Assembly: GCF_000615975.1 (NCBI RefSeq)
Contig: NZ_BAMP01000010.1
Coordinates: 1-64,000 of the forward strand
Reading direction: 5' to 3'
Length of the DNA stretch: 64,000 bases
DNA from: Nitratireductor aquibiodomus NL21 = JCM 21793
GTDB lineage: Bacteria > Pseudomonadota > Alphaproteobacteria > Rhizobiales > Rhizobiaceae
Shown here one piece after another: positions 20,550 through 53,426 of this stretch. Under the pieces are notes generated by a model that was not told the DNA's origin, searched no databases, and worked only from the letters and a program-made list of their open reading frames with translations. The number at the start of each line of letters is the position of its first letter. Positions within the stretch are counted from its first letter, which is position 1. A program made the position numbers and the translations under genes.

Positions 20550-21448
20550 TCACCGGCCGAAACGGCGCTGGAAACTGTCCGTATTCGCAAGGGGCGGCAG
20601 GCCGGCATGATCGAGCCAGTTTTCGCTCGGCTCCATCAGGCGTCGATAGACTTCGCGTACCAGCTTCGTGCTTCTTCGCCGGGCCAGTCCTTCGGCAGGA
20701 GGGCCATGGGCAGGCCGGGATCGCGCAGGACAATCCGCCGCCAGTCGTGGATGAGCAGGGTGCGTGCGGCCATGGCGTCCACCGGGGCGGGAAGCGGGGA
20801 CACAGCAAGGCTACCGGCAAGGGCCGAATATTCGACAATGAGTTCGCGATAGGCTTCGGCAATCTCGTCAGAGGGCCACAGGCTCCGCAGCATTTCGGGA
20901 TGCTCGGCGCTGGAACCGTGGATAATAAGCATGTCGTTCAGTGGCGCGGCGCCGGAAGTCGGGCCGTCATCTGGTCCGGGGGTGCGGGGCAGGAGATAGA
21001 CACCATCGGCGATCTTCAGAAAGCCGTGTTCCTTTAGTGTCTCTTCGTGCACGCCGTTGCTGCCGGGTGCTGCGATAGCGACAGTCCATGAACCATCCCA
21101 GTCGGGCGCGCCGGCTGCATAGATGCGCCGTGTCGCCAGGTCGAAGGCATGCTGGCCATGCCGGTCGAGGGAGAAAAACGAGTTGCGACCGCGCCGTTCG
21201 CGCACCACCCAGCCATCGCTGGCGAGCCGCGACATTGCGGTGCGGAGTGCTCCCGCCTCGATGCCGAGCCGCGCCATCACCGCTTGAAGCACCGCCAGCG
21301 GTGCTTCGCCGCCGCGCGGCACGATGGCGTCACCAAAAAGGGTGATCACCAGAGACCAGACCCGAACGCGTCCGCGCCGGTGCAGGCGATCGATCAGGCC
21401 GGCAAGGGCGGTTTCGGGAGGTTCTGTCGGTACATCCATCTTTTCCAA
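20550..21448 (-). CDS. paaX: Phenylacetate catabolism repressor PaaX, frameshifted near C-terminus
   Basis: PaaX family, about 299 residues when repaired. Landmarks are VRVWSLVITLFGDAIVPRGG (N-terminal winged helix), EAGALRTAMSRLASDGWVVR and DGSWTVAIAAPG. The frame breaks near 20662: after EEARSWY the given frame stops, while one base away it continues REVYRRLMEPSENWLDH to a stop at 20550, which matches the PaaX C-terminus. It represses paa genes and is relieved by phenylacetyl-CoA in known systems. It lies downstream of paaK-paaR. Confidence 0.85.
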
Positions 21449-21479: not shown

Positions 21480-22076
21480 TCAGGGAAGCTCCTTTACGCC
21501 GCTCACAAGCAGGTGGGCGGTGAGCTTCGCATAGTCTTGTCTCGAAATTCCGCGATCCTCGCGAAACCACATGTAGAACCAGTTGAGCATACCGAAAAGG
21601 CTCATCGTGACCGGTTTCAGAAGTGGCCTGTTGTCGAAGGCGTCGGGGTTCACCTGCCGTATGGCCTCCGCGAAGATCGCCACCAGCCGGCGTTCCAGCG
21701 CCTTCAGCTCTTCCTGCTGCGCATCCGGCAGAAGCTGCAGACCGGAAAGCTGAACGCGGTGCTCATTGTCCGCATCGCGATACGCTTCGAGCAGGGCCGT
21801 CACCAGCCCTTCCAGCCGCGCCTGCGGAGCTTCATGCGGCTGATCAGCCTCTTCCACGGCTTCCACCAGTTCCTGCAGATGCGTTTCGATGATGTCGAAA
21901 AGCAGGGCCTCCTTGGAGGTGTAGTAGTGATAGAGAAGGGCCTTCGAGACACCCAGCTCCGTTGCAAGCTGGTTCATCGAGGCGCGGTCATAGCCGTCGC
22001 GCGCGAATATGCGCGCTGCGCCATGCAGCATGGCGTCGCGCTTGTCGTCATAGTCCTTGGCGCGGGTGCGGGCCAT
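21480..22076 (-). CDS. TetR family regulator of phenylacetate genes (PaaR-like)
   Basis: 198 residues. N-terminal TetR helix-turn-helix: AARIFARDGYDRASMNQLATELGVSKALLYHYYTSKEALL. The C-terminal domain ends MWFREDRGISRQDYAKLTAHL, in the style of the PaaR-type TetR regulators found with paaK in other Proteobacteria. It is co-directional with paaI-paaK and paaX. It is the best candidate to bind the perfect palindrome ACCGACCGGTCGGT at 23939 between paaI and the P450 gene. Confidence 0.8.
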   Translation of the reverse strand: MARTRAKDYDDKRDAMLHGAARIFARDGYDRASMNQLATELGVSKALLYHYYTSKEALLFDIIETHLQELVEAVEEADQPHEAPQARLEGLVTALLEAYRDADNEHRVQLSGLQLLPDAQQEELKALERRLVAIFAEAIRQVNPDAFDNRPLLKPVTMSLFGMLNWFYMWFREDRGISRQDYAKLTAHLLVSGVKELP

Positions 22077-22119: not shown

Positions 22120-23429
22120 TCACTGTTTCACCCGCTTGTCGACGATGCGCACGGCCTTGCCCTGGCTGCGGGCGACGCCGCCGGGATCGGTCGCGTGGAC
22201 GCGCACCGTCACGCCGACCACATCCTTGATGCGTTCGCCGAGCTGGCGGCAGGCGGCAAGCCGCACTTCCTCGCCGGCCTCGAGCGTTTCCATCTCCACA
22301 TGGATCGTCATCGCATCCATGCGGCCTTCCTGCGTGAGCTCGATCTGGAAATGCGGCGCGAGCCCGTCAACGGTAAGGATCTGCTCTTCGATCTGGGTGG
22401 GGAACACATTGACGCCGCGCAGGATCATCATGTCGTCCGAGCGGCCGGTGATCTTTTCCATCCGGCGCATGGAGCGCGCCGTGCCCGGCAGAAGTCGCGT
22501 CAGGTCGCGGGTGCGGTAGCGCACGATGGGGAAGGCTTCCTTGGTGAGCGAGGTGAACACCAGTTCGCCCATTTCGCCATCCGGCAGCACTTCGCCGGTC
22601 TCCGGGTCGATGATCTCGGGATAGAAATGATCTTCCAGATGTGCAGCCCGTCCTTGGTTTCCACGCATTCGTTCGCCACGCCCGGCCCCATCACCTCCGA
22701 CAGGCCGTAAATGTCGACCGCATGCATGTCGAATGCGTATTCGATCTCGGCGCGCATGGCGTTGGTCCATGGTTCCGCACCGAAAATGCCCACCTTGAGC
22801 GGGCTCTTGCGCGGGTCGAGGCCGCGCGCGCGGTATTCGTCGAGGATCGACAGCATGTAGGAGGGCGTGACCATAATCGTGTCGGCCCGGAAATCCTCGA
22901 TCAGCGTGACCTGGCGTGCCGTCATGCCGCCGGAGGCTGGCACAACCGTTGCGCCCAGCCGCTCTGCGCCGTAATGCGCACCCAGACCGCCCGTGAAGAG
23001 CCCATAGCCATAGGCCACGTGAACGATGTCGCCCGCCCGCGTGCCAGACGCGCGGATCGAGCGCGCCATCACCTCGGCCCAGGTGTCGATGTCCTTTGCG
23101 GTGTAGCCCACAACGGTCGGCTTGCCGGTCGTGCCGGACGAGGCGTGAATGCGCGCCACCTTCTCGCGCGGTACCGCGAACATGCCGAACGGATAATTGT
23201 CGCGCAGATCCGTTTTTACGGTGAAGAGGAACTTCGAGAGGTCGGAGAGCTCTTTCAGGTCGTCGGGGTGAACGCCGGCAGCGTCGAAACTCTTTTTGTA
23301 GTGTGGCACATTCTCATAGGCATGGTTCAACGACCATTTGAGACGCACCAGCTGCAACGCCTGGATTTCGTCGCGTGAGGCGATTTCAATGGGATCCAGC
23401 TCTTCTTTTCTTGGGGTCAGGTCTTTCAT
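22120..23429 (-). CDS. paaK: Phenylacetate-CoA ligase, frameshifted
   Basis: Activates phenylacetate to phenylacetyl-CoA with ATP, the first step of the aerobic hybrid pathway. AMP-binding motif SSGTTGKPTVVGY (near residue 95), YGLSEVMGPGVANEC and GRSDDMMILRGVNVFPTQIE are PaaK signatures. The frame breaks near 22640: CTGCACATCTGGAAGATC lacks one G, and adding it gives LHIWEDHFYPEIIDPETGEV. The repaired protein is 436 residues, the usual length. It sits 19 bases after paaI and is followed by paaR and paaX. Confidence 0.92.
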
Positions 23430-23448: not shown

Positions 23449-23895
23449 TCAGGCCTCCTCCTCGAAATGTTTGCCGCTGATCACGCGAGAATTGCCACGA
23501 AACTCCGCGATCAGCCTGCCGTCCTGATTTTCAACCCGCACATCATAAATGCCGGAGCGACCAAACCGCGCGACCTCCCGCGCGACTGCCGTAAGCCGGT
23601 CGCCGAGCGTGCCGGGTGCCACGAAGGTGATGGAATTGTGCTGTGCGACAACGATCTGGTTGTAGGAGTTGCAGGCAAAGGCAAAGGCCGAATCCGCCAG
23701 CGTGAAGATGTAGCCACCATGGCAGATGTCGTGCCCATTGGTGTGATGCTTCTCCACCGTCATCGACAGGATCGCGCTGCCCGGCGCCACGGCATCGAGG
23801 CTGCACCCCAGCCATTTGGATGCATCGTCGCGCGCCCACATGGCCTGCGCGCTGCGCTCTGCGATCTCCTGTGGAGACAGTTGCATTTGTGACAT
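23449..23895 (-). CDS. paaI: Phenylacetate-pathway hotdog thioesterase PaaI
   Basis: 148 residues, hotdog fold. HTNGHDICHGGYIFTLADSAFAFACN contains the PaaI signature, with the catalytic Asp in the TLADSAFAF helix. It hydrolyses stalled ring-hydroxylated phenylacetyl-CoA esters, sparing free CoA. It is the first gene of the minus-strand paaI-paaK-paaR-paaX set and faces the P450-paaZ pair over about 105 bases that carry the ACCGACCGGTCGGT site. Confidence 0.9.
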   Translation of the reverse strand: MSQMQLSPQEIAERSAQAMWARDDASKWLGCSLDAVAPGSAILSMTVEKHHTNGHDICHGGYIFTLADSAFAFACNSYNQIVVAQHNSITFVAPGTLGDRLTAVAREVARFGRSGIYDVRVENQDGRLIAEFRGNSRVISGKHFEEEA

Positions 23896-23938
23896 CTAGG
23901 CTCCTCCCAACGGCGTCGGTGAAAGCAGACTTGCATAA

Positions 23939-23952
23939 ACCGACCGGTCGGT
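23939..23952. promoter_or_regulatory. TetR-type operator palindrome in the paaI/P450 divergent promoter
   Basis: ACCGACCGGTCGGT is a perfect 14-bp palindrome placed between the divergent paaI and P450 starts. Its ACCGACC..GGTCGGT form agrees with operators described for TetR regulators of acyl-CoA/phenylacetate genes. It probably binds the TetR protein encoded at 21480-22076. Confidence 0.68.
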
Positions 23953-24001
23953 CAATAATACTGTTGAGAGGAGGCGGTGGGGCCGCTTCCGGGAGGAGAG
24001 C

Positions 24002-25240
24002 ATGGCAAAAACGGCAGACAACGCTGCAACGAATGGCGAGAAACTGGCGGAGGACTTTGAATTGACGGCGCTGCCAGAGGGCTTCGTGGACGACCCGTTT
24101 CCGGCCTATCACGCACTTCTGGAGCACGCGCCCCTGAAGCGTTTCGCCGACGGCTCGGTCATGCTGTCGCGCTATGAGGATCTCGACCGCGTCTATCGCG
24201 ACACGAAAACCTTTTCCTCCGACAAGAAGGCCGAATTCCTGCCGAAGTTCGGCGACACGCCGCTTTACGAGCATCACACGACGAGCCTCGTCTTCAACGA
24301 TCCGCCGCTTCACACGCGGGTGCGCAAGATCATGATGGGCGCGCTCACGCCGCGCGCGCTGGCGGCCCTCGAGCCGGGCCTGGTCACGCTGGTCGATGGC
24401 CTGCTCGACCGTATGGAAGAGAAGGGCGCGGTCGATCTCATCGAGGATTTCGCCGCCGCGATCCCCGTCGAAGTCATCGGTAACCTGTTCGACATCCCCC
24501 ACGAGGAACGCGAGCCGCTGCGCGACTGGTCCCTCGCCATTCTCGGTGCGCTGGAGCCGGTCCTCACCGACGAACAGCAGCAATGGGGCAATACCTCCGT
24601 CACCGATTTCAAGGCCTATCTCAAGGCGATCGCCGACGACCGGCGCCGCAATCCCGGCGACCCGGCGACCGACGTTTTGACCCGTCTCATCAACGGCAAT
24701 GAGGGGGAAGAGCTCTCCGAGGTCGAGCTTTTGCAGAACTGCATCTTCATCCTCAATGCCGGTCACGAGACCACCACGAACCTGATCGGCAACGCCCTTT
24801 ACGAGCTGTTGCACTGGCCCGAAGAGAAAGCGCGGCTTGAAGCCGACCCGGACCTGATCGCAACGGCCGTCGATGAGTTCTTACGCTTCCAGAGCCCCAA
24901 TCAGCTCGGCAACCGCATGGCGGTGGAGCCGGTGGAGTTCCATGGCGAAACCGTGGAGCCGGGCACGCCGATCCATCTCTGCATTGGTGCTGCCAACCGC
25001 GATCCGCGCCAGTTCGCCGATCCGGACCGACTCGACGTGGGGCGTAAGCCCAACAGGCATCTGGCCTTTGCCGGTGGTCCTCATCTGTGCGCGGGCTTCT
25101 CGCTTGCGCGGATGGAAGGACGCATCGGCATTTCGCATTTTCTCAAACGTTTCCCCGACTACCGGCTGACAGGAGAACCGGAGCGCACCGGACGTGTGCG
25201 CTTTCGCGGCTTCGCCCGGCTGCCGGCGCGGGTGCGCTGA
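24002..25240 (+). CDS. Cytochrome P450
   Basis: 412 residues, soluble bacterial P450. The I-helix oxygen-binding motif is AGHETTTN, the K-helix ExxR is in DEFLRFQ, and the heme loop is FAGGPHLCAGFSLARME with the axial Cys. ATG 24002 follows GGGAGGAGAG. It is co-transcribed with paaZ (18-base gap) and divergent from paaI-paaK, so it is probably induced by aromatic acids. It has no ferredoxin or reductase partner in the window. The substrate, perhaps a phenylacetate precursor or side product, is unknown. Confidence 0.9.
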   Translation: MAKTADNAATNGEKLAEDFELTALPEGFVDDPFPAYHALLEHAPLKRFADGSVMLSRYEDLDRVYRDTKTFSSDKKAEFLPKFGDTPLYEHHTTSLVFNDPPLHTRVRKIMMGALTPRALAALEPGLVTLVDGLLDRMEEKGAVDLIEDFAAAIPVEVIGNLFDIPHEEREPLRDWSLAILGALEPVLTDEQQQWGNTSVTDFKAYLKAIADDRRRNPGDPATDVLTRLINGNEGEELSEVELLQNCIFILNAGHETTTNLIGNALYELLHWPEEKARLEADPDLIATAVDEFLRFQSPNQLGNRMAVEPVEFHGETVEPGTPIHLCIGAANRDPRQFADPDRLDVGRKPNRHLAFAGGPHLCAGFSLARMEGRIGISHFLKRFPDYRLTGEPERTGRVRFRGFARLPARVR

Positions 25241-25258: not shown

Positions 25259-27289
25259 ATGAGCGTGATGCGGCTTGAAAGCTATGCGGCAGGGGCGTGG
25301 GTTGCGCCTTCCGGTGACCTCAAACCCCTGCGGAGTGCGGTCACCGGCGATGTCGTTGCCGAACTCGGTTCGCAAAAGCTGGACTTCGTCCGCATGGCCG
25401 ACCATGCCCGCCAGGTGGGCGGGCCGGCGCTGCGCGCGATGACGTTCCACGACCGCGCCTTCGCCATCAAAGCGCTGGCGCAGTATCTGAACGACCGCCG
25501 CGAAGCGCTCTACGAGCTTTCCTACGAGACCGGCGCGACCAAGCCTGACTCGATGATCGACATCGATGGCGGCATCGGCACGCTGTTCGTCTATTCGTCC
25601 AAGGCAAGGCGCGAGCTGCCGGACGATCACGTCTATGTGGATGGCGTGCTGGAGCAGCTTTCCCGCTCCGGAAACTTCGTTGGCCAGCACGTGGCGACGC
25701 CGCTTCAGGGCGTGGCCGTCCACATCAACGCCTTCAACTTTCCCGTCTGGGGCATGCTGGAAAAGCTTGCGCCGACGCTGATCGCCGGCGTTCCGGCCAT
25801 CGTCAAGCCGGCCTCCGCCACCGCATGGCTCGCCGAAGCCTGTTTCCGCATGATCGTGGAATCGGGCCTGTTCCCGGAAGGCACGGTGCAGTTCATCGCG
25901 GGCTCCACCGGAGACCTGCTTGACCGCCTGACCGGTCAGGACGTGGTGTCCTTCACGGGCTCTGCCTCCACCGCATCCATGCTGCGCGCCAACCCGAAGA
26001 TTATCGGCAATTCAGTGCGTTTCGTGGCCGAGCAGGATTCGCTCAACGCTTCGGTGCTTGGCCCGGACGCTGCGCCAGGAACCCCAGAATTCGATGCCTT
26101 CCTCAAGGAAGTGCACCGCGAGATGACGGCCAAGGCCGGCCAGAAATGCACCGCCGTGCGCCGCATTTTCGTGCCCGACGCGCACCGCGACGCGGTCACC
26201 GACGCGCTCATCGCCCGGCTTGAGAAGACCGTGGTTGGCAATCCGCGCAGCGAAGGCGTGCGGATGGGCGCGCTCGCAAGCCTCGCCCAGCGCGACGACG
26301 TTCTTGAGAAGGCCGGCATTCTCGCCACCGAGGCCCGCCGTGTGTTTGGCGATCCGGATGCCTTTTCGGTCACCGATGCCGATGCGGCTGCGGGCGCATT
26401 CGTGCCGCCCATGCTGTTCTCCTGCGGCGATCCCGATGGCGCTCAGAAGCTGCATTCCGTCGAAGCGTTCGGCCCCGTGTCCACCATCATGCCGTATCGC
26501 GATCTCGGCCATGCGCTGAAACTCGCCAATCGCGGCGAGGGTTCGCTTGTCGCCTCGGTCTTCACGCATGATCCGGCGGTGGCCCGGCAGGCGGTTCTGG
26601 AGGCCGGTGCCTTCCATGGCCGGCTCTATTTCGCCAACCGCGACACCGGCAAGGAGGCGACCGGCCACGGTTCGCCGCTGCCGCACATGGTGCATGGCGG
26701 CCCCGGCCGCGCCGGCGGTGGCGAGGAGCTTGGCGGTGTCCGTGGCGTGATGCACTACATGCAGCGCACCGCGATCCAGGCAAGCCCCGATCTGATCGCC
26801 GGCATCACCAACCGCTATGTGGCGGGCGCTTCGACCGAAGAGATAGAGCCGCATCCCTTCCGCCTGACCTTTGGCGAGCTGGAGCCCGGCCGCACGCTCT
26901 GGGCCGGTCCGCGCGAGGTGACGCTGGCGGACATCGAGCATTTCGCCGAGTTCACCGGCGATACGTTCTACGCGCATATGGACGAGGAGGCGGCTGCCGC
27001 CAATCCGTTCTTCCCCGGCCGTGTCGCCCATGGCTATCTTATCCTGTCCTTTGCAGCGGGCATGTTCGTCGAGCCGGCGCCGGGCCCGGTGCTTGCCAAC
27101 TACGGCCTCGACAATCTGCGTTTCATGAAGCCGGTTTCGCCCGGCGATACGCTGAAAGTGCGGCTCACGGTCAAGCAGAAGACGCGCCGCAAGGACGAAT
27201 ATGGCGAAGTGCGCTGGGATGTCGGCGTCTACAATCAGGACGGCGAGCAGGTTGCCGCCTACGAACTCCTGACCATGAATGCCATGTAG
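25259..27289 (+). CDS. paaZ: Bifunctional oxepin-CoA hydrolase / 3-oxo-5,6-dehydrosuberyl-CoA semialdehyde dehydrogenase
   Basis: 676 residues. An aldehyde dehydrogenase domain (about 1-520; [20 protein letters not shown]-like helix, FTGSAST, catalytic Cys in [11 protein letters not shown]) is fused to a MaoC-like hydratase domain (about 535-676; [27 protein letters not shown]). PaaZ opens the oxepin-CoA ring and oxidises the aldehyde formed. The start ATG 25259 follows AAAGGAG. It is intact and follows the P450 gene. Other beta-oxidation paa genes (F, G, H, J) are not in this window. Confidence 0.93.
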
Positions 27290-27399: not shown

Positions 27400-28463
27400 C
27401 TAAATGCTCCTGGTCTTGAACGTCAGCCCGTCCACCAGTTCCGAGGCTTTAAGCGTTGCCGTACCCGTTGCGACAATCATCTGCGGCAGGAGCATCCATT
27501 CCAGCGTCCATGCCGTGCCGGAGCGTTCGTTTTCGTGCACCAGCGCCTGATGCATTCCGCCCACAAGCGCCGCGTTGAAGCGGGCAAGCGCCACCAGCGT
27601 TTCGGCGGCGACCGGGTTCTTCTTGTGCGGCATGGCGGAAGATCCGCCGCCTGCAGCCAGTTCGACCTCGCCAACCTCGCTCTGTGCGGCAAGCACAATG
27701 TCCTGCCCCATCTTGCCGAGCTGCCGGTGATGAGCGAAAGGACGGAGGCAAAGGCGACAATTCCGTCGCGCTCACTGTGGCGGGGGTGTTCGGGCAGAGC
27801 TAGGTCAAGTCTCGCCGCAAGTCGCCCGGCAACGGGTTCCCCCTTCTCGCCAAGCCTGTCGAGCGTACCGGCCGCGCCGCCGAAATGCAGCACCACAACC
27901 TCGTCCAGTGCCTTCTCAAGCCTCTCCGCATGGCGCAGGAGCGGCGCGCGCCAGGAGCGGATTTTCCGGCTGGCGGATACCGGGATGGCGGCCTGCATCC
28001 GCGTGTGCGCCATGACCTCGATCTGGCCATCGCGTTTTTCCAAAGATTCAAGGGACTGGATGAGCCTGCCCAGTCTCTTGCCGAGAATTTCAATCGCCTC
28101 CCGTGCGCGCAGCGCAAAGCCCGTGTCGATCACATCCTGGCTCGTCGCGCCGAGGTGCAGGTGGGCACGCCACGCTTCAGACAGACCGGCACGGATCTGC
28201 GCAATGAGGGCGGGGATCACGACCCCATCCTGCGCTACACCTGCCTTCAGAGCGGCGATGTCGGGGCTGAAGCCGGCAAGCAAATCGGCAATCTCCTGCG
28301 CCGCCTCCTGCGGGATCGCACCCTGATCGGCCTGTGCCAGGGCAAGCTCCGCCTCAAAACGCAGCATCGCCTCGATCTCAGCCCGCGCCGAAAAGAGCGG
28401 CTCCAGTTCCTCGTCCCCGAGGAGCCCTGAAAGGATGGGATGGTCGAAGGCGGAAATGGTCAT
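27400..28463 (-). CDS. pcaB: 3-carboxy-cis,cis-muconate cycloisomerase, frameshifted
   Basis: Fumarase/adenylosuccinate-lyase superfamily enzyme converting 3-carboxymuconate to 4-carboxymuconolactone in the protocatechuate branch. Visible are HLGATSQDVIDTGFALR, HTRMQAAIPVS and the superfamily signature GGGSSAMPHKKNPVAAE. The frame breaks near 27726: after LITGSS the other frame continues LGKMGQDIVLAAQSEVGEVE. One added base gives 354 residues, typical of rhizobial PcaB. Last gene of the pobA-pcaCHGB set. Confidence 0.9.
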
Positions 28464-28509: not shown

Positions 28510-29124
28510 TCATATATCGAAAAACACTGTTTCCCATTCACCCTGGAGATGGATGTCGAAGAGGTAATGCGCGCTTTCCTTCCGTGCGATCAGGGTCTCC
28601 ACTCTGTTCTGATGCTCGAGCCGCGTCAGCACCGGGTCTTCGGCGTTGGCCGTTTCCTCGTCACTGAAATAAAGGCGCGTCGCCAGCCCCAGATTGATGC
28701 CACGGGCGACAATCCAGAGGCTGATATGCGGCGCCATCAGGCGCCCGTCTGGGAAGGGGACGCGGCCCGGTTTGATGGTTTCGATTGCGATCTCGCCGGT
28801 CTCCATATCGGAGGGGAAACGCCCCCAGCCCTGAAAGTTTGGATCTGCTTTGCCACGGGTTTCAGAAGGCGAATTGTATAGCCCGTCGGCGTCTGCCTGC
28901 CAGGTTTCGACCAGCGCATCCCCGAGCACCGTGCCGGTTCCGTCGAAGATGCGCATCTTGATGGTGATGCGTTCGCCTCGCGCTTTCGCATCCACCGGCC
29001 CGGAACCCAGATCATGAGGGTAGACGCCCGCGATGCCACCGAAATTCGGCGTAAGGCCGATATGCACATAGGGGCCTGCGGTCTGCGAGGCAGTTTCCTT
29101 CAGGCGTCCGACCGACTGAGCCAT
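28510..29124 (-). CDS. pcaG: Protocatechuate 3,4-dioxygenase alpha subunit
   Basis: 204 residues. Intradiol dioxygenase fold with TAGPYVHIGLTPNFGG, ALVETWQADADGLYNSP and APHISLWIVARGINLGL. The alpha subunit lacks the iron ligands held by PcaH; together they cleave protocatechuate between the hydroxyls. ATG 29124 overlaps the pcaH stop as ATGA, so translation is coupled. Intact. Confidence 0.93.
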   Translation of the reverse strand: MAQSVGRLKETASQTAGPYVHIGLTPNFGGIAGVYPHDLGSGPVDAKARGERITIKMRIFDGTGTVLGDALVETWQADADGLYNSPSETRGKADPNFQGWGRFPSDMETGEIAIETIKPGRVPFPDGRLMAPHISLWIVARGINLGLATRLYFSDEETANAEDPVLTRLEHQNRVETLIARKESAHYLFDIHLQGEWETVFFDI

Positions 29125-29863
29125 CAGTTTCCCTCCATGCGGTTTTCGAACAGGGTCGAACGCCGGCCGCGCAGTACGATGTCGAACCTGTAGGCGCGTG
29201 CATCCATCGGCACCGCGGCCTCCATGTCGAGCGCGGCAATCAGACCCTCCACGGCTTGACGGTCTGGGATGGTGGAGACGATCGGGCAGCGCCAGATCAT
29301 CGGATCGCCCTCGAAATACATCTGTGTGATAAGGCGTTGGACGAAACCGTGTCCGAAAATGGAAAAATGAATGTGCGCGGGCCGCCAGTCATTGATGCCA
29401 TTCGGCCATGGATAGCTCCCGGCACGATGGTGCGAAAGAAATAGTGGCCCTCCGAATCGCTTATGGTGCGCCCGCATCCGCCGAAATTAGGGTCGAGTGG
29501 CGCCAGATAGCCATCTTTCCGGTGCCGGTAGCGACCGCCTGCATTGGCCTGCCAGAATTCCACGAGAACGTTGGGTACGGGCCGGGCGTTTTCGTCGAGC
29601 ACACGTCCGTATACGATGATCCGCGGGCCTATGGCACTTTCGCCGGGTGTGGCAAAGTTCACCGTCAGGTCATTGTCCAGTGCGCCGAGAATGCTGTGGC
29701 CGAAGACCGGGCCTGTCACCTCCGAAAGCGTGTGCGGAAAGGAGACCGGTGCCCGCCGCGGCGAGCGGGCAACGGATGTCTTGTAAAGCGGGGTCAGGGC
29801 AGGCGGATGCCAGCCGCGGTCTCGCTGGAAGAAGCATTCTGTATGGTGCTGTTCGTTCTTCAT
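29124..29863 (-). CDS. pcaH: Protocatechuate 3,4-dioxygenase beta subunit, frameshifted
   Basis: Iron-binding beta subunit. [37 protein letters not shown] and [16 protein letters not shown] carry the Tyr/His Fe(III) ligands in the expected order. The frame breaks near 29415: after FRTIVPGA the other frame continues [14 protein letters not shown]. One added base gives 246 residues, normal length. The start ATG 29863 overlaps the pcaC stop as ATGA. Confidence 0.92.
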
Positions 29864-49731: not shown

Positions 49732-50726
49732 ATGTATAGCCAAGGGCTTATCGGCGCGAAAACCGATACCACCGAAGACGAGGCCTTTCTCGCCGCCTTT
49801 CAGGCGCGGGTCGATGCCGAAGAGAAGATCGAGCCCAACGACCCGATGCCGGAGGGTTATCGCAAGACGCTCGTTCGCCAGATCGGCCAGCACGCGCATT
49901 CCGAGATCGTCGGCATGCTGCCGGAGGGCAACTGGATCACGCGCGCGCCGTCGCTGCGCCGCAAGGCGGCCCTGCTTGCCAAGGTGCAGGATGAGGGCGG
50001 CCACGGGCTCTATCTCTATTCCGCCGCCGAAACGCTGGGCGTCTCGCGCGAGGAAATGACCGAAGAGCTTCTGTCCGGCAAGGCAAAATATTCCTCCATC
50101 TTCAACTATCCGACGCAGACCTGGGCCGACATCGGCGCGATCGGCTGGCTGGTGGATGGCGCGGCCATCATGAACCAGATCCCGCTTTGCCGCTGTTCCT
50201 ACGGCCCCTATGCCCGCGCCATGATCCGGGTGTGCAAGGAAGAGAGCTTCCATCAGCGCCAGGGCTACGAGATCATGATGACGCTGGCGCGTGGCACGCC
50301 CGAGCAAAAGGAGATGGCGCAGGATGCGCTGAACCGCTGGTGGTGGCCCTCGCTCATGATGTTCGGTCCTTCGGACGGTGACAGCCAGCACAGCGACCAG
50401 TCGATGAAATGGAAGATCAAGCGGTTCACCAATGACGAGCTGCGCCAGAAATTCGTCGATGCGACGGTGCCGCAGGGCGAGTTCATCGGCCTGACCTTTC
50501 CCGATCCCGACCTCAAGTGGAACGATGAGAAGGGCTCTTACGATTTCGGCCCCATCGACTGGGACGAGTTCTGGCGCGTGGTGAAGGGGCATGGGCCCAT
50601 GAACCGCGAGCGCATCGAGGCCCGGCGGAAAGCTGGGATGATGGCGCATGGGTGCGCGAGGCGGCACTCGCGCATGCGGAAAAACGGAAAGCCCGCCGCG
50701 AAGCGGCGAAAATGGCGGCGGAGTGA
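49732..50726 (+). CDS. paaA: Phenylacetyl-CoA 1,2-epoxidase catalytic subunit PaaA, frameshifted at C-terminus
   Basis: Di-iron monooxygenase subunit that epoxidises the ring of phenylacetyl-CoA. [35 protein letters not shown] and [22 protein letters not shown] carry Glu/His iron ligands. The frame breaks near 50634: GCGGAAAGCTGGGATGATG lacks one base, and repair gives [20 protein letters not shown] and a stop at 50724, for 331 residues. First gene of paaABCDE; ATG 49732 follows GGAGGACG. Confidence 0.93.
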
Positions 50727-50731
50727 GCCAC

Positions 50732-51019
50732 ATGACGAAGAACCTGATCCCCCTTTGGGAAGTTTTTATCCGCCCGCGCAACGGGCTGGCCCACAAGCAT
50801 TGCGGTTCTGTTCATGCCGCCGACGAGGTGATGGCGCTTCAGGCCGCGCGCGATGTCTATACGCGCCGGGGTGAGGGCACCTCCATCTGGGTCGTGCCGT
50901 CGTCTGCGATCACCGCGTCGGACCCGGAAAACAAGGACGAGAATTTCGAGCCGTCTCTCTCGAAGGTCTACCGTCACCCGACCTTCTACGACATTCCTGA
51001 AGATGTGGGGCATATGTGA
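50732..51019 (+). CDS. paaB: Phenylacetyl-CoA epoxidase subunit PaaB
   Basis: 95 residues. [51 protein letters not shown] is diagnostic for PaaB, the small structural subunit needed for complex assembly. ATG 50732 lies five bases after the repaired paaA stop. Intact. Confidence 0.94.
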
Positions 51020-51792
51020 TGGCCGCCGCTTCTCCCGTTTCCGGCGAGATGCTGACGGCGTTTCTGCTGCGGCTTGCCGACGATCATCTGATCTTAGGTC
51101 ACCGGCTTTCGGAGTGGTGCGGTCACGCGCCCATGCTGGAAGAAGACCTCGCCATGCCAAACATGGCGCTCGATCTCATCGGTCAGGCGCGGTCGCTCTA
51201 CCAGTATGCCGGCGAGGCTGAAGGCAAGGGCCGCGACGAGGATCAACTGGCCTATGTGCGCCGCGAACGTGAATATGTGAACTGCCTGATGGCCGAGCGC
51301 CAGAACGGCGATTTCGCGCACACCATGCTGCGCCAGTTCTATTTCGCAGCCTTCATGCAGCCTCTCTGGCAGGCCATAATGTCGTCGACCGACGCGCGGC
51401 TGGCGGGCATTGCCGCCAAGGCCGAGAAGGAAGTCGCCTATCACATTCGCCATGCCGGCGAATGGGTGGTGCGCCTTGGCGATGGCACTGAGGAAAGCAC
51501 GCGCCGCATGAAGGCGGCGGTCGAGGCGCTCGCTCCCTACGTGGACGAGCTGTTCGAGAGCGACGAGGTTTCGCGGGCTGTGGCCGAGGCTGGCATCGCG
51601 CCCGATCCGTCCACTTTGCGACCTGCCTTCGACGCCATCGTCGGTCCAGTGTTCGCCGAAGCGGGGCTCGACTGGGTGGAAACGCCCTATGGCCAGACCG
51701 GCGGTCGGCAGGGCCGCCATGGCGAGGCGCTGGGCTTCCTGCTTGCAGAACTGCAATACATGCAGCGCACCTATCCGGGGATGACGTGGTGA
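51019..51792 (+). CDS. paaC: Phenylacetyl-CoA epoxidase subunit PaaC
   Basis: 257 residues. Ferritin-like subunit without a functional di-iron site, pairing with PaaA. DDHLILGHRLSEWCGHAPMLEEDLAMPNMALDLIGQARSLYQY and TPYGQTGGRQGRHGEALGFLLAELQYMQR are typical. ATG 51019 overlaps the paaB stop; a GTG one codon earlier is an alternative start. Confidence 0.94.
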   Translation: MAAASPVSGEMLTAFLLRLADDHLILGHRLSEWCGHAPMLEEDLAMPNMALDLIGQARSLYQYAGEAEGKGRDEDQLAYVRREREYVNCLMAERQNGDFAHTMLRQFYFAAFMQPLWQAIMSSTDARLAGIAAKAEKEVAYHIRHAGEWVVRLGDGTEESTRRMKAAVEALAPYVDELFESDEVSRAVAEAGIAPDPSTLRPAFDAIVGPVFAEAGLDWVETPYGQTGGRQGRHGEALGFLLAELQYMQRTYPGMTW

Positions 51793-52325
51793 TCGGCGAA
51801 ACGGTGGTGACGGCCTTTCCTTCAGGCCGCCTTTTCCCCGCAGGCGGGGAGAAGGAAGAGCGCGCCTATAGCGCCGCCGCCGCTGTGGTCGATCCGGAAA
51901 TCCCCGCCGTCACCATTGCCGAACTCGGCATCCTGCGCGGTGTCGAGATGGATGGCGATGTGGCCGTCGCCCGCGTCACGCCCACCTATACGGGTTGCCC
52001 GGCGGTGCTCGCCATTGAACTGGCGGTGGAAACGGCGCTGCGTGAAGCGGGTTTCGAACCGCGCGTGGAGCGCGTCATTTCGCCCGCCTGGACGACGGAC
52101 TGGATCACGGAGGAGGGGCGCGAAAAGCTGCGCGCCTATGGCATCGCGCCACCCGTAAAAGCCTCCAACTCCATTCGCGCGCTGTTTGGCGAGACGGAAG
52201 TGGCGTGCCCGCGCTGCGGCTCGCTTGAGACCGCGCGCATTTCCGAATTCGGCTCCACGGCCTGCAAGGCGCTTTACCGCTGCCAGAGCTGCCACGAGCC
52301 TTTCGACTATTTCAAATGTATCTGA
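51789..52325 (+). CDS. paaD: Phenylacetate epoxidase assembly protein PaaD with repeat-derived N-terminus
   Basis: 178 residues, DUF59/MIP18-like N-terminal half (VVDPEIPAVTIAELGILRGV, TYTGCPAVLAIE) and a C-terminal Cys cluster (CPRCGSLETARISEF ... CKALYRCQSCHEPF) for Fe-S or zinc. Thought to mature the epoxidase complex. GTG 51789 overlaps the paaC stop. Residues about 9-25 are encoded by a CTTTTCCCCGC/GCGGGGAGAAGG palindrome (51829-51855) of the intergenic repeat type, inserted in frame ahead of the conserved domain. Confidence 0.9.
   Translation: MIGETVVTAFPSGRLFPAGGEKEERAYSAAAAVVDPEIPAVTIAELGILRGVEMDGDVAVARVTPTYTGCPAVLAIELAVETALREAGFEPRVERVISPAWTTDWITEEGREKLRAYGIAPPVKASNSIRALFGETEVACPRCGSLETARISEFGSTACKALYRCQSCHEPFDYFKCI
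51829..51855. repeat. Intergenic-type palindromic repeat inside paaD, copy C
   Basis: CGCCTTTTCCCCGC-AG-GCGGGGAGAAGG has the stem of the repeats at 27352, 35330 and 53481 but lies within the first 25 codons of paaD, where it is translated without breaking the frame. Confidence 0.65.
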
Positions 52326-52347
52326 CCGACCCCAGACCGAGGTGACC

Positions 52348-53426
52348 ATGGCCCCGCGTTTTCACGATCTGAAAGTGACCTCCATCGAGCGGCAGACCCC
52401 TGAAGCCGTGGCGATCGCCTTTGAAATCCCGGCGGATCAGGTGGAGGCGTTTGCCTTCACGCCCGGCCAGTATCTGACGCTTGCCACCGAAATTGACGGC
52501 AAGGAAGCCCGCCGCTCCTATTCCATCTGTTCCGCGCCCGGCGATCCCTATCTGCGCGTCGGCGTGAAGAAAGTTGCCGACGGCCGCTTCTCCACCTTCG
52601 TCAACGATGTGCTTTCCGTCGGCGACACGATCCGCGTGATGCCGCCGCAGGGCCGTTTTACCGCGCTCAAGGGCGAGCGCCACGATTACCTTCTCTTCGC
52701 CGCCGGCTCCGGCATCACGCCGATGCTTTCCATCGCCCGCACGGTTCTGGCCCATGAGCCCGACAGCACGATCACGCTGGTCTATGGCAACCGCTCCACC
52801 GAGACGATCATGTTTCTTGAGGAACTGAATGACCTCAAGGACCGCTATATGGGCCGCTTCACGCTGATCCACCTTCTGTCGCGCGAAACGCAGGATGTGG
52901 ACATTCTGAACGGCCGCATCGAGCTTCGCGCGTCGGCGAACTCGCCGATGGCGGCCTCATCGAGCCCGCCGCCATGGATGGCGTGTTCCTGTGCGGCCCC
53001 GGCGAGATGATCGACGCGGTATCCGGCACGCTTCAGACCATGGGTGTGGAGCGGGACCGCATCCGCTTCGAGCGCTTCACGCCGTCGGGCGAAGCGCCGG
53101 CCCCGCGCAAGGCGTCGAAGGCCGCGCGTGAGGCTGTTCAGGAAGGTGTTGCGGTCGAAGTCGTGGTCGATGGCGTGCGCCGCAGCTTTTCCATGCAGGA
53201 TGCCGATGGCACCGTGCTTGACGCGGCCCACAAGGCCGGCATCGAACTGCCTTATTCCTGCGCCGGCGGCATGTGCTGCACCTGCCGCTGCCGCGTGGTG
53301 GAGGGGCAGTCGGAAATGGCGGTGAACTTTTCGCTGGAACCCTGGGAAGTCGAAGCCGGCTTCACGCTCGCCTGCCAGACCCGCCCCACGGCAAAAAAGC
53401 TGGTCCTCGATTTCGACGCCGCCTGA
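52348..53426 (+). CDS. paaE: Phenylacetyl-CoA epoxidase reductase PaaE, frameshifted
   Basis: FAD/NADPH and 2Fe-2S reductase feeding the PaaABC oxygenase. An N-terminal ferredoxin-reductase domain has RRSYSICSAP and LLFAAGSGITPMLSI; a C-terminal plant-type ferredoxin has LPYSCAGGMCCTCRCRVVEG. The frame breaks near 52932 (ELRASANS versus GELADGGLIEPAAMDGVF). One added base gives 359 residues, normal length. Last gene of the operon. Confidence 0.92.

Follow-up and report, generated by a model that had tools for sequence, protein, structure and literature searches.

A candidate arylacetate hydroxylase of the cytochrome P450 superfamily behind a predicted PaaR-type operator in the phenylacetate genes of Nitratireductor aquibiodomus

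The DNA analyzed here (the window) comprises the first 64,000 nucleotides of contig NZ_BAMP01000010.1 of Nitratireductor aquibiodomus NL21 = JCM 21793, whose genome assembly spans 4.51 Mb in 207 contigs and is 86.6% complete. Its open reading frames include an intact, unfused cytochrome P450 of 412 residues with an ATG start (table 1), which matches the Pfam profile PF00067 (p450) above its cut-off (6.1e-30) and carries the superfamily's features: an I-helix A253-G254-H255-E256-T257, E292-F-L-R295, and the heme loop F356AGGPHLCAG365, in which an A at position 2 is the single deviation from the PROSITE pattern. The 412 residues match PF00067 only and are thus without the fused FMN/[2Fe-2S] reductase of the CYP116B type. 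Nine NCBIfam P450 models matched the protein, every one far under its cut-off, and its best matches among 24 loci retrieved by protein similarity (up to 96%) are from Nitratireductor. The closest solved structure by sequence is P450BioI (PDB 3ejb, 236 bits), which was also the best match in a fold search with an AlphaFold model (32–33% identity); the model agrees with a P450 fold and tells nothing beyond it, and its mean pLDDT of 57 (19-row alignment) means that the pocket is not readable from it. P450BioI acts on an acyl-carrier-bound fatty acid, and we see no sign of a common substrate. We know of no assay for any member of the subfamily to which the window P450 belongs.

The initial annotation placed the P450 gene ahead of paaZ and divergent from paaI–paaK, an order that the open reading frames bear out (table 1). 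The P450 stop codon lies 18 bp from the start of paaZ on the same strand, and the two genes probably form one operon; the 5′ end of paaI faces the P450 gene across a 106-bp intergenic region that separates two divergent units. Downstream of paaZ are pcaB, pcaG and pobA (NCBIfam) as well as pcaH and pcaC (named by eye), and paaABCDE lies within the same window at 49.7–53.0 kb. The annotation's further claim that no redox partner is nearby stands for the neighbors scanned, since neither a ferredoxin nor a ferredoxin reductase was found among the P450 neighbors given to NCBIfam or Pfam, a part of the window's open reading frames; it does not extend to the window as a whole, which encodes PaaE, an NAD(P)H-flavin-[2Fe-2S] reductase, about 27 kb from the P450. 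Frameshift-like breaks occur in paaK (22120–23429), pcaB (27400–28463), pcaH (by eye; 29124–29863) and paaE (52186–53010). Both paaK and paaE are unbroken in relatives, and the presence of multiple broken frames in one draft contig suggests that sequencing or assembly errors are more likely than decay.

Table 1. Genes and promoter elements around the P450 gene and at the paaABCDE genes of the window
Feature	Position	Strand	Evidence
Cytochrome P450, intact	24002..25240	+	ORF list, Pfam
paaZ	25259..27289	+	TIGR02278, 998 bits
paaI, thioesterase	23449..23895	-	TIGR02286
paaK N-terminal piece, frame broken	22500..23429	-	ORF list, NCBIfam
paaK C-terminal piece, frame broken	22120..22770	-	ORF list, NCBIfam
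TetR-family regulator, candidate PaaR	21480..22076	-	NCBIfam, Pfam
PaaX-family regulator	20636..21448	-	TIGR02277 at 187.5 bits (cut-off 264.55, not reached); PF07848 and PF08223 above cut-offs
ORF holding paaA, phenylacetyl-CoA epoxidase subunit	49732..50874	+	TIGR02156 match at 49798-50634
paaC, PaaA_PaaC family	51016..51792	+	Profile match
paaE 5′ part	52186..53010	+	tblastn match to L222 PaaE (= TIGR02160)
PaaR-type operator ACCGACCGGTCGGT, perfect palindrome	23939..23952		Equals the B. cenocepacia paaA inverted repeat
-35 box TTGCAT of P450-paaZ promoter, inferred	23931..23936	+	By eye
-10 box AATAAT, inferred	23954..23959	+	By eye

The intergenic region contains the palindrome ACCGACCGGTCGGT, which almost fills the 17-nt spacer between the putative −35 and −10 boxes of the P450–paaZ promoter; these boxes were read by eye, and a consensus promoter scan did not report the TTGCAT-17 nt-AATAAT promoter. 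TTGCAT is conserved in 23 rhizobial loci, and the −10 box reads AATTAT in L055. The operator recurs with 0–2 mismatches in 23 of 23 rhizobial paa–P450 loci, and variants such as ACCGAACGGTTGGT occupy the divergent promoter before the P450-containing unit in 13 of 14 Rhodobacteraceae loci (the exception is L162) and in both of the Ruegeria plasmids described below; L209 and L210 carry a weaker form (by eye). The exact repeat occurs once in the window and once in its whole assembly. At up to two mismatches the assembly holds 31 sites versus 34 for a reversed control pattern, so that relaxed matches are no commoner than the control and the meaning of the motif lies in the exact site in its place.

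The same 14-bp repeat was mutated at the paaA promoter of Burkholderia cenocepacia by Hamlin and co-workers, who, in the available portion of their paper, describe it as required for negative control, attribute repression through it to the TetR protein PaaR and locate it between −35 and −10 (PMC2770484). Later binding tests on PaaR-type repressors, with phenylacetyl-CoA as the inducer, are summarized in the available sections of a review (PMC9493321). The window resembles these promoters in the identical repeat, in its position between the putative −35 and −10 boxes and in the TetR gene (candidate PaaR) of the same cluster, a homolog of which is present in 23 of the 24 P450 loci retrieved by protein similarity and in the Ruegeria clusters. 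It differs in that the B. cenocepacia repeat controls paaA, paaH and paaZ, whereas here the P450 gene stands between repeat and paaZ, and in that no operator at ≤3 mismatches was found in the 330 bases upstream of the window's paaA ORF. PaaR-type control of the P450 promoter is, for a prediction from sequence, well supported, and the earlier assignment of the P450 to the phenylacetate regulon thereby gains both support and a specific form, a PaaR-type operator inside the putative promoter of the gene.

The annotation had tied its proposal to conservation of the neighborhood, and the neighborhood is indeed conserved. Our set consists of 24 loci on named contigs from one protein-similarity scan with the window P450; the P450 gene adjoins paaI and paaK in 23 of them, including L059 (the same locus as L219), whose broken P450 aligns to residue 310 only. 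The arrangement is also kept on large plasmids of Ruegeria sp. THAF33 and AD91A, where the P450 gene lies between TRAP genes and paaZ. In 21 of the 24 loci paaZ begins no more than 350 bp downstream, in the same orientation; L042 ends 97 bp past the P450, and L060 has no paa genes around it. An insert of ~0.8 kb in L052 (4508–5400), resembling a small toxin–antitoxin pair by eye, separates P450 and paaZ. A gene annotated as 'FAD-dependent oxidoreductase' in the Ruegeria paa cluster (L036, 6989–9022) was considered as a redox partner and ruled out, being a FadJ-like enoyl-CoA hydratase/3-hydroxyacyl-CoA dehydrogenase.

Among Rhodobacteraceae (a family to which G193 is assigned by inference, its family holding close matches to Ruegeria's genes), the subfamily was detected at E ≤ 1e-130 in 48 of 394 sampled genomes. 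All 48 contexts were retrieved as far as the contigs extend, and 15 of them are paa contexts: 14 in the first set, plus L242, in which the P450 gene precedes paaZ-paaX-paaABCDE. In the 14 loci of the first set the P450 gene always lies directly before paaZ, and in 11 it is itself directly preceded by TRAP genes. On a tree of 104 P450 sequences the label 'paa' needs 3 changes versus a mean of 32.9 for shuffled labels (0 of 500 shuffles as low), a low count that close relatives make easy to attain; the tree covers the loci retrieved up to that point, omits the incomplete or stop-containing sequences of L059, L119, L121 and L219 as well as L212–L216, which have no P450, and scores L222 as 'other'. 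At the level of gene order and sequence, the placement of a P450 gene in this divergent promoter is conserved over two orders.

The P450 gene is an accessory gene of the paa pathway. A search of 247 Rhizobiaceae genomes found paaZ in 85 and the P450 subfamily in 45, and 44 of the 85 paaZ-positive genomes gave no P450 match at 1e-130, so that the P450 does not belong to the core enzymes of the canonical phenylacetyl-CoA pathway. In five loci (L212–L216) the operator separates divergent paaI and paaZ genes and the P450 is absent; one of their genomes (G945, L212) has two genus-mates that possess it (G858, G1007). The idea that the P450 depends on an adjacent paaZ was dropped on account of L209–L211, where it stands beside paaK/paaI and a paaZ of another type is located elsewhere. 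We likewise dropped the idea that the whole subfamily serves the paa pathway: 30 of 384 other genomes in a class-wide sample hold a relative at 47–65%, and paaK, paaI and paaZ were not found in any of the 30 stretches around them, some of which are short.

The contexts of the 45 Rhizobiaceae members are correspondingly varied, with 30 in a paa context, 6 with hmgA-fahA, 1 in a TRAP–Rieske cluster and 8 in which our queries found none of these. The paa contexts consist of 27 with paaK/I/Z, 23 of them with the P450 directly before paaZ, and 3 in which the P450 directly follows paaABCDE (L222, L228, L229); in G009 the P450, accompanied by paaI and paaK, sits where the contig ends, and in G832, G993 and G944 it accompanies paaK/paaI with no adjacent paaZ. 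The six hmgA-fahA members lie in or beside homogentisate genes (L218, L220, L221, L224, L225, L231). The P450 ORF of L225 starts at the final base of fahA; the L231 cluster comprises hmgA, fahA, P450, a metallo-hydrolase, a PRK08132-type flavin monooxygenase and maiA; and in L218 and L220 hmgA and fahA are on the opposite strand beside the P450, with an IclR-type gene and TRAP genes present. In another family, the P450 of L121 (one of the 30 relatives at 47–65%, where hmgA was seen later) ends in GTGA, the GTG of which is the start of hmgA (TIGR01015, 604 bits). Altogether 7 of 83 loci that fall outside the initial paaK/I/Z groups have hmgA no more than 8 kb from the P450, and they represent three or four lineages. 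Another 19 loci, L224–L242, were retrieved after the homogentisate idea arose; the three of them that hold hmgA are not independent, since two belong to the same genus as L221 and the remaining one (L231, another genus) has the same gene order. L221, L224, L225 and L231 all combine hmgA-fahA and P450 with a PRK08132-type flavin monooxygenase, an assignment checked by profile for L221 and L231, and these clusters possibly form a set for several hydroxyphenylacetate isomers.

Other surroundings also recur. L169 (6164–13623) and L217 (3187–13967), from two families, have in common a module of TRAP transporter, P450, a reductase encoded next to the P450 and a benzoate-dioxygenase-like Rieske oxygenase, the Rieske matches being under the model cut-offs; the L217 module, the TRAP–Rieske cluster of the Rhizobiaceae, also includes a CoA ligase and an acyl-CoA dehydrogenase. 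Many P450 relatives lie among other or housekeeping genes. An orphan P450 near an ndk-like gene (by eye) is seen in Rhodobacteraceae (L168, L173, L175–L178, L180, L186, L188–L190), and in L173 (2081–5856) the P450 adjoins a gene that resembles anthraniloyl-CoA monooxygenase by eye.

A substrate that fits both the paa and the hmg contexts and is oxidized by a P450 would plausibly be a hydroxyphenylacetate. We consider it likely that the P450 is an arylacetate hydroxylase, with 2-hydroxyphenylacetate as the best single guess for its substrate; the complete reading, that 2-hydroxyphenylacetate leaking from the epoxide of the paa pathway is what it converts to homogentisate, with a substrate and a redox partner that we infer, is given a probability of roughly 0.43. 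The hydroxyphenylacetate and shunt-product roles guessed in the initial annotation are thus favored by the hmgA-fahA contexts; its alternative of styrene or arylalkane feeding gains nothing, as no such genes were recognized among the neighbors examined. In the proposed mechanism, the neighboring TetR protein (PaaR) would keep the promoter shut until phenylacetyl-CoA appears, and its opening by phenylacetyl-CoA would mean that P450 and PaaZ are made together. Part of the ring-1,2-epoxyphenylacetyl-CoA would leak to 2-hydroxyphenylacetyl-CoA; a thioesterase such as PaaI would release 2-hydroxyphenylacetate, the P450 would hydroxylate it at C5 to homogentisate, and HmgA, FahA and MaiA would degrade the product. 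Electrons may come from PaaE, the nearest candidate, or from a ferredoxin encoded elsewhere in the genome, and the relatives beside hmgA/fahA in other species would be the same type of enzyme acting on externally supplied 2-hydroxyphenylacetate.

Fungal CYP504 enzymes are P450 phenylacetate hydroxylases that lead phenylacetate to homogentisate, and they resemble our proposal in offering a P450 route between these compounds while differing in being eukaryotic. Closer in chemistry is OhpA, a CYP116B enzyme that converts 2-hydroxyphenylacetate to homogentisate and whose gene is accompanied by those of an IclR regulator and a transporter (ohpR-ohpT-ohpA), as described in the available part of PMC8449657, which also cites fungal phacA; CYP116B234 performs the same conversion according to the accessible part of PMC11889516. 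The P450s studied here are likewise linked to homogentisate genes, and in L218 and L220 the further presence of an IclR-type gene and transporter genes parallels the ohpR-ohpT-ohpA layout. Unlike the window protein, a bare P450, OhpA has 783 residues with a fused reductase, and the PaaR-type operator and paa neighbors of the window P450 have no counterpart in the available main text of PMC8449657, from which 'paa' is absent. In the portions of papers available to our literature search, we recognized none that reports a paa cluster with a P450.

Our reading predicts that hmgA accompanies the P450, and hmgA was present in 41 of 41 genomes tested with a paa-linked P450, including that of the window (C171), and in 102 of 119 genomes with paaZ and no P450. 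The latter comprise 32 of 39 Rhizobiaceae genomes (one hmgA partial; the test covered 39 of 44 genomes of this kind) and 70 of 80 tested Rhodobacteraceae genomes (68 above cut-off). Fisher's test gives p = 0.007 combined, 0.036 for Rhizobiaceae and 0.35 for Rhodobacteraceae, uncorrected for kinship, and hmgA is present in the genomes of L212–L216 (one partial) although the P450 is absent. The predicted co-occurrence survived but is not sharp, hmgA being common in both families anyway. Within Rhodobacteraceae, hmgA lies ≤21 kb from the P450 in 3 of 14 paa loci (G767, G619, G522) versus ≤21 kb from paaZ in 2 of 80 P450-negative genomes (G438, G458; paaZ positions cover part of the 80), a weak and post hoc difference (p = 0.02).

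Sequence motifs bear on whether paa and non-paa members share a substrate. We aligned 42 paa members with 27 orphan-clade members and with L218, L220, L221 and L222; the B–C loop, part of the F-helix, the I-helix, the segment that follows ExxR and a C-terminal RxRF, which from P450 topology we take to line the pocket, are identical or nearly so, and paa and orphan members are separated at 6 positions only. The motif positions were chosen for their invariance, which makes the one-substrate argument partly circular. In a control of 25 more distant members, none with a paaK/I/Z neighborhood, the motif positions agree with the window protein at 88%, compared with 53% for the full length, and agreement falls at W176–L178, N246, I250, N300, G303 and G403. 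An identity of 88% in distant members indicates that the motifs mark the whole subfamily; this control weakens the one-substrate argument and lowered our confidence in the arylacetate-hydroxylase reading from 0.45 to 0.43.

Several further observations weigh on the proposal. Our literature search returned no paper tying 2-hydroxyphenylacetate or 2-hydroxyphenylacetic acid to an epoxide leak of paaG/paaZ. Among pathway intermediates PaaI is described as narrow for phenylacetyl-CoA in the available sections of a review (PMC9493321), so that release of 2-hydroxyphenylacetate by PaaI is not secured, and JMP134 grows on phenylacetate with no need for hmgA and no ohpA induction according to the available part of PMC8449657, so that a flow from phenylacetate to 2-hydroxyphenylacetate is not general. 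The TRAP genes before the P450 in Rhodobacteraceae loci suggest an imported substrate. The benzoate-dioxygenase-like Rieske contexts of L169 and L217, the other or housekeeping contexts and the P450 losses in L212–L216 also count against our reading. The available main text of PMC9007349, consulted for fitness data, does not mention a P450.

There is room for a feeder role, given the specificity of PaaI, the findings in JMP134, the TRAP and Rieske contexts, the motif control and the absence of the P450 from some paa loci. In such a role the P450 would convert an aryl acid imported by the TRAP system, such as a methoxy- or alkyl-phenylacetate, to a phenylacetate suitable for activation by PaaK. 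We regard this as unlikely, though a serious contender. Besides the TRAP genes of the Rhodobacteraceae paa loci, it is favored by TRAP large-permease genes ≤8 kb from the P450 in the non-paa loci L101, L105, L122, L169, L179, L217, L218 and L220, and by L209–L211, in which the P450 stays with paaK-paaI where paaZ is elsewhere; however, no TRAP genes were recognized beside the window's P450, the product would have to suit the paa, homogentisate and Rieske contexts alike, and the TRAP system might just import phenylacetate.

It is distinctly improbable that the P450 acts as a hydroxylase of phenylacetate itself and provides a bypass to homogentisate once the CoA route is saturated: the enzyme would compete with PaaK for phenylacetate, and a single step yields 2-hydroxyphenylacetate and not homogentisate, even if the operator shared with paaZ, the presence of hmgA in all 41 genomes and the fungal P450 2-hydroxylation of phenylacetate cited in the available part of PMC8449657 speak for it. 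Detoxification of a shunt product from PaaG/PaaZ, either bound to CoA or with a seven-membered ring of the tropone type, would fit the position directly before paaZ in 21 of the 24 named loci and 14 of the 14 Rhodobacteraceae paa loci, and BioI, the nearest solved relative, accepts carrier-bound acyl groups; yet that fold match is just 32–33% identical and comes from a poor model, and hmgA-side members with no paa genes in their stretch share the likely pocket motifs, and we hold this explanation to be very improbable. Equally remote is a mere passenger in the operator-controlled unit with no pathway role, as the absence of the P450 from the five loci that keep paaZ and operator (L212–L216) and the one broken copy (L219) might suggest, since the gene has been kept over two orders with intact catalytic motifs and a conserved operator and lies recurrently beside paa or hmg genes.

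Returning to the hydroxylation of 2-hydroxyphenylacetate, we tentatively suggest, as a broader scheme that we hold to be less probable than the enzyme's role itself, that in these alphaproteobacteria the paa pathway includes a salvage branch of its own in which a dedicated, PaaR-induced P450, perhaps fed by PaaE, would turn leaked hydroxyphenylacetate into homogentisate. Pyomelanin formation in hmgA mutants would then offer a simple color test. If true, the proposal would explain how some bacteria handle the 2-hydroxyphenylacetate leak of the epoxide route, would give a large P450 subfamily a natural function and the OhpA reaction a second, unfused enzyme family, and would join two ring-cleavage pathways that have been held to be separate.
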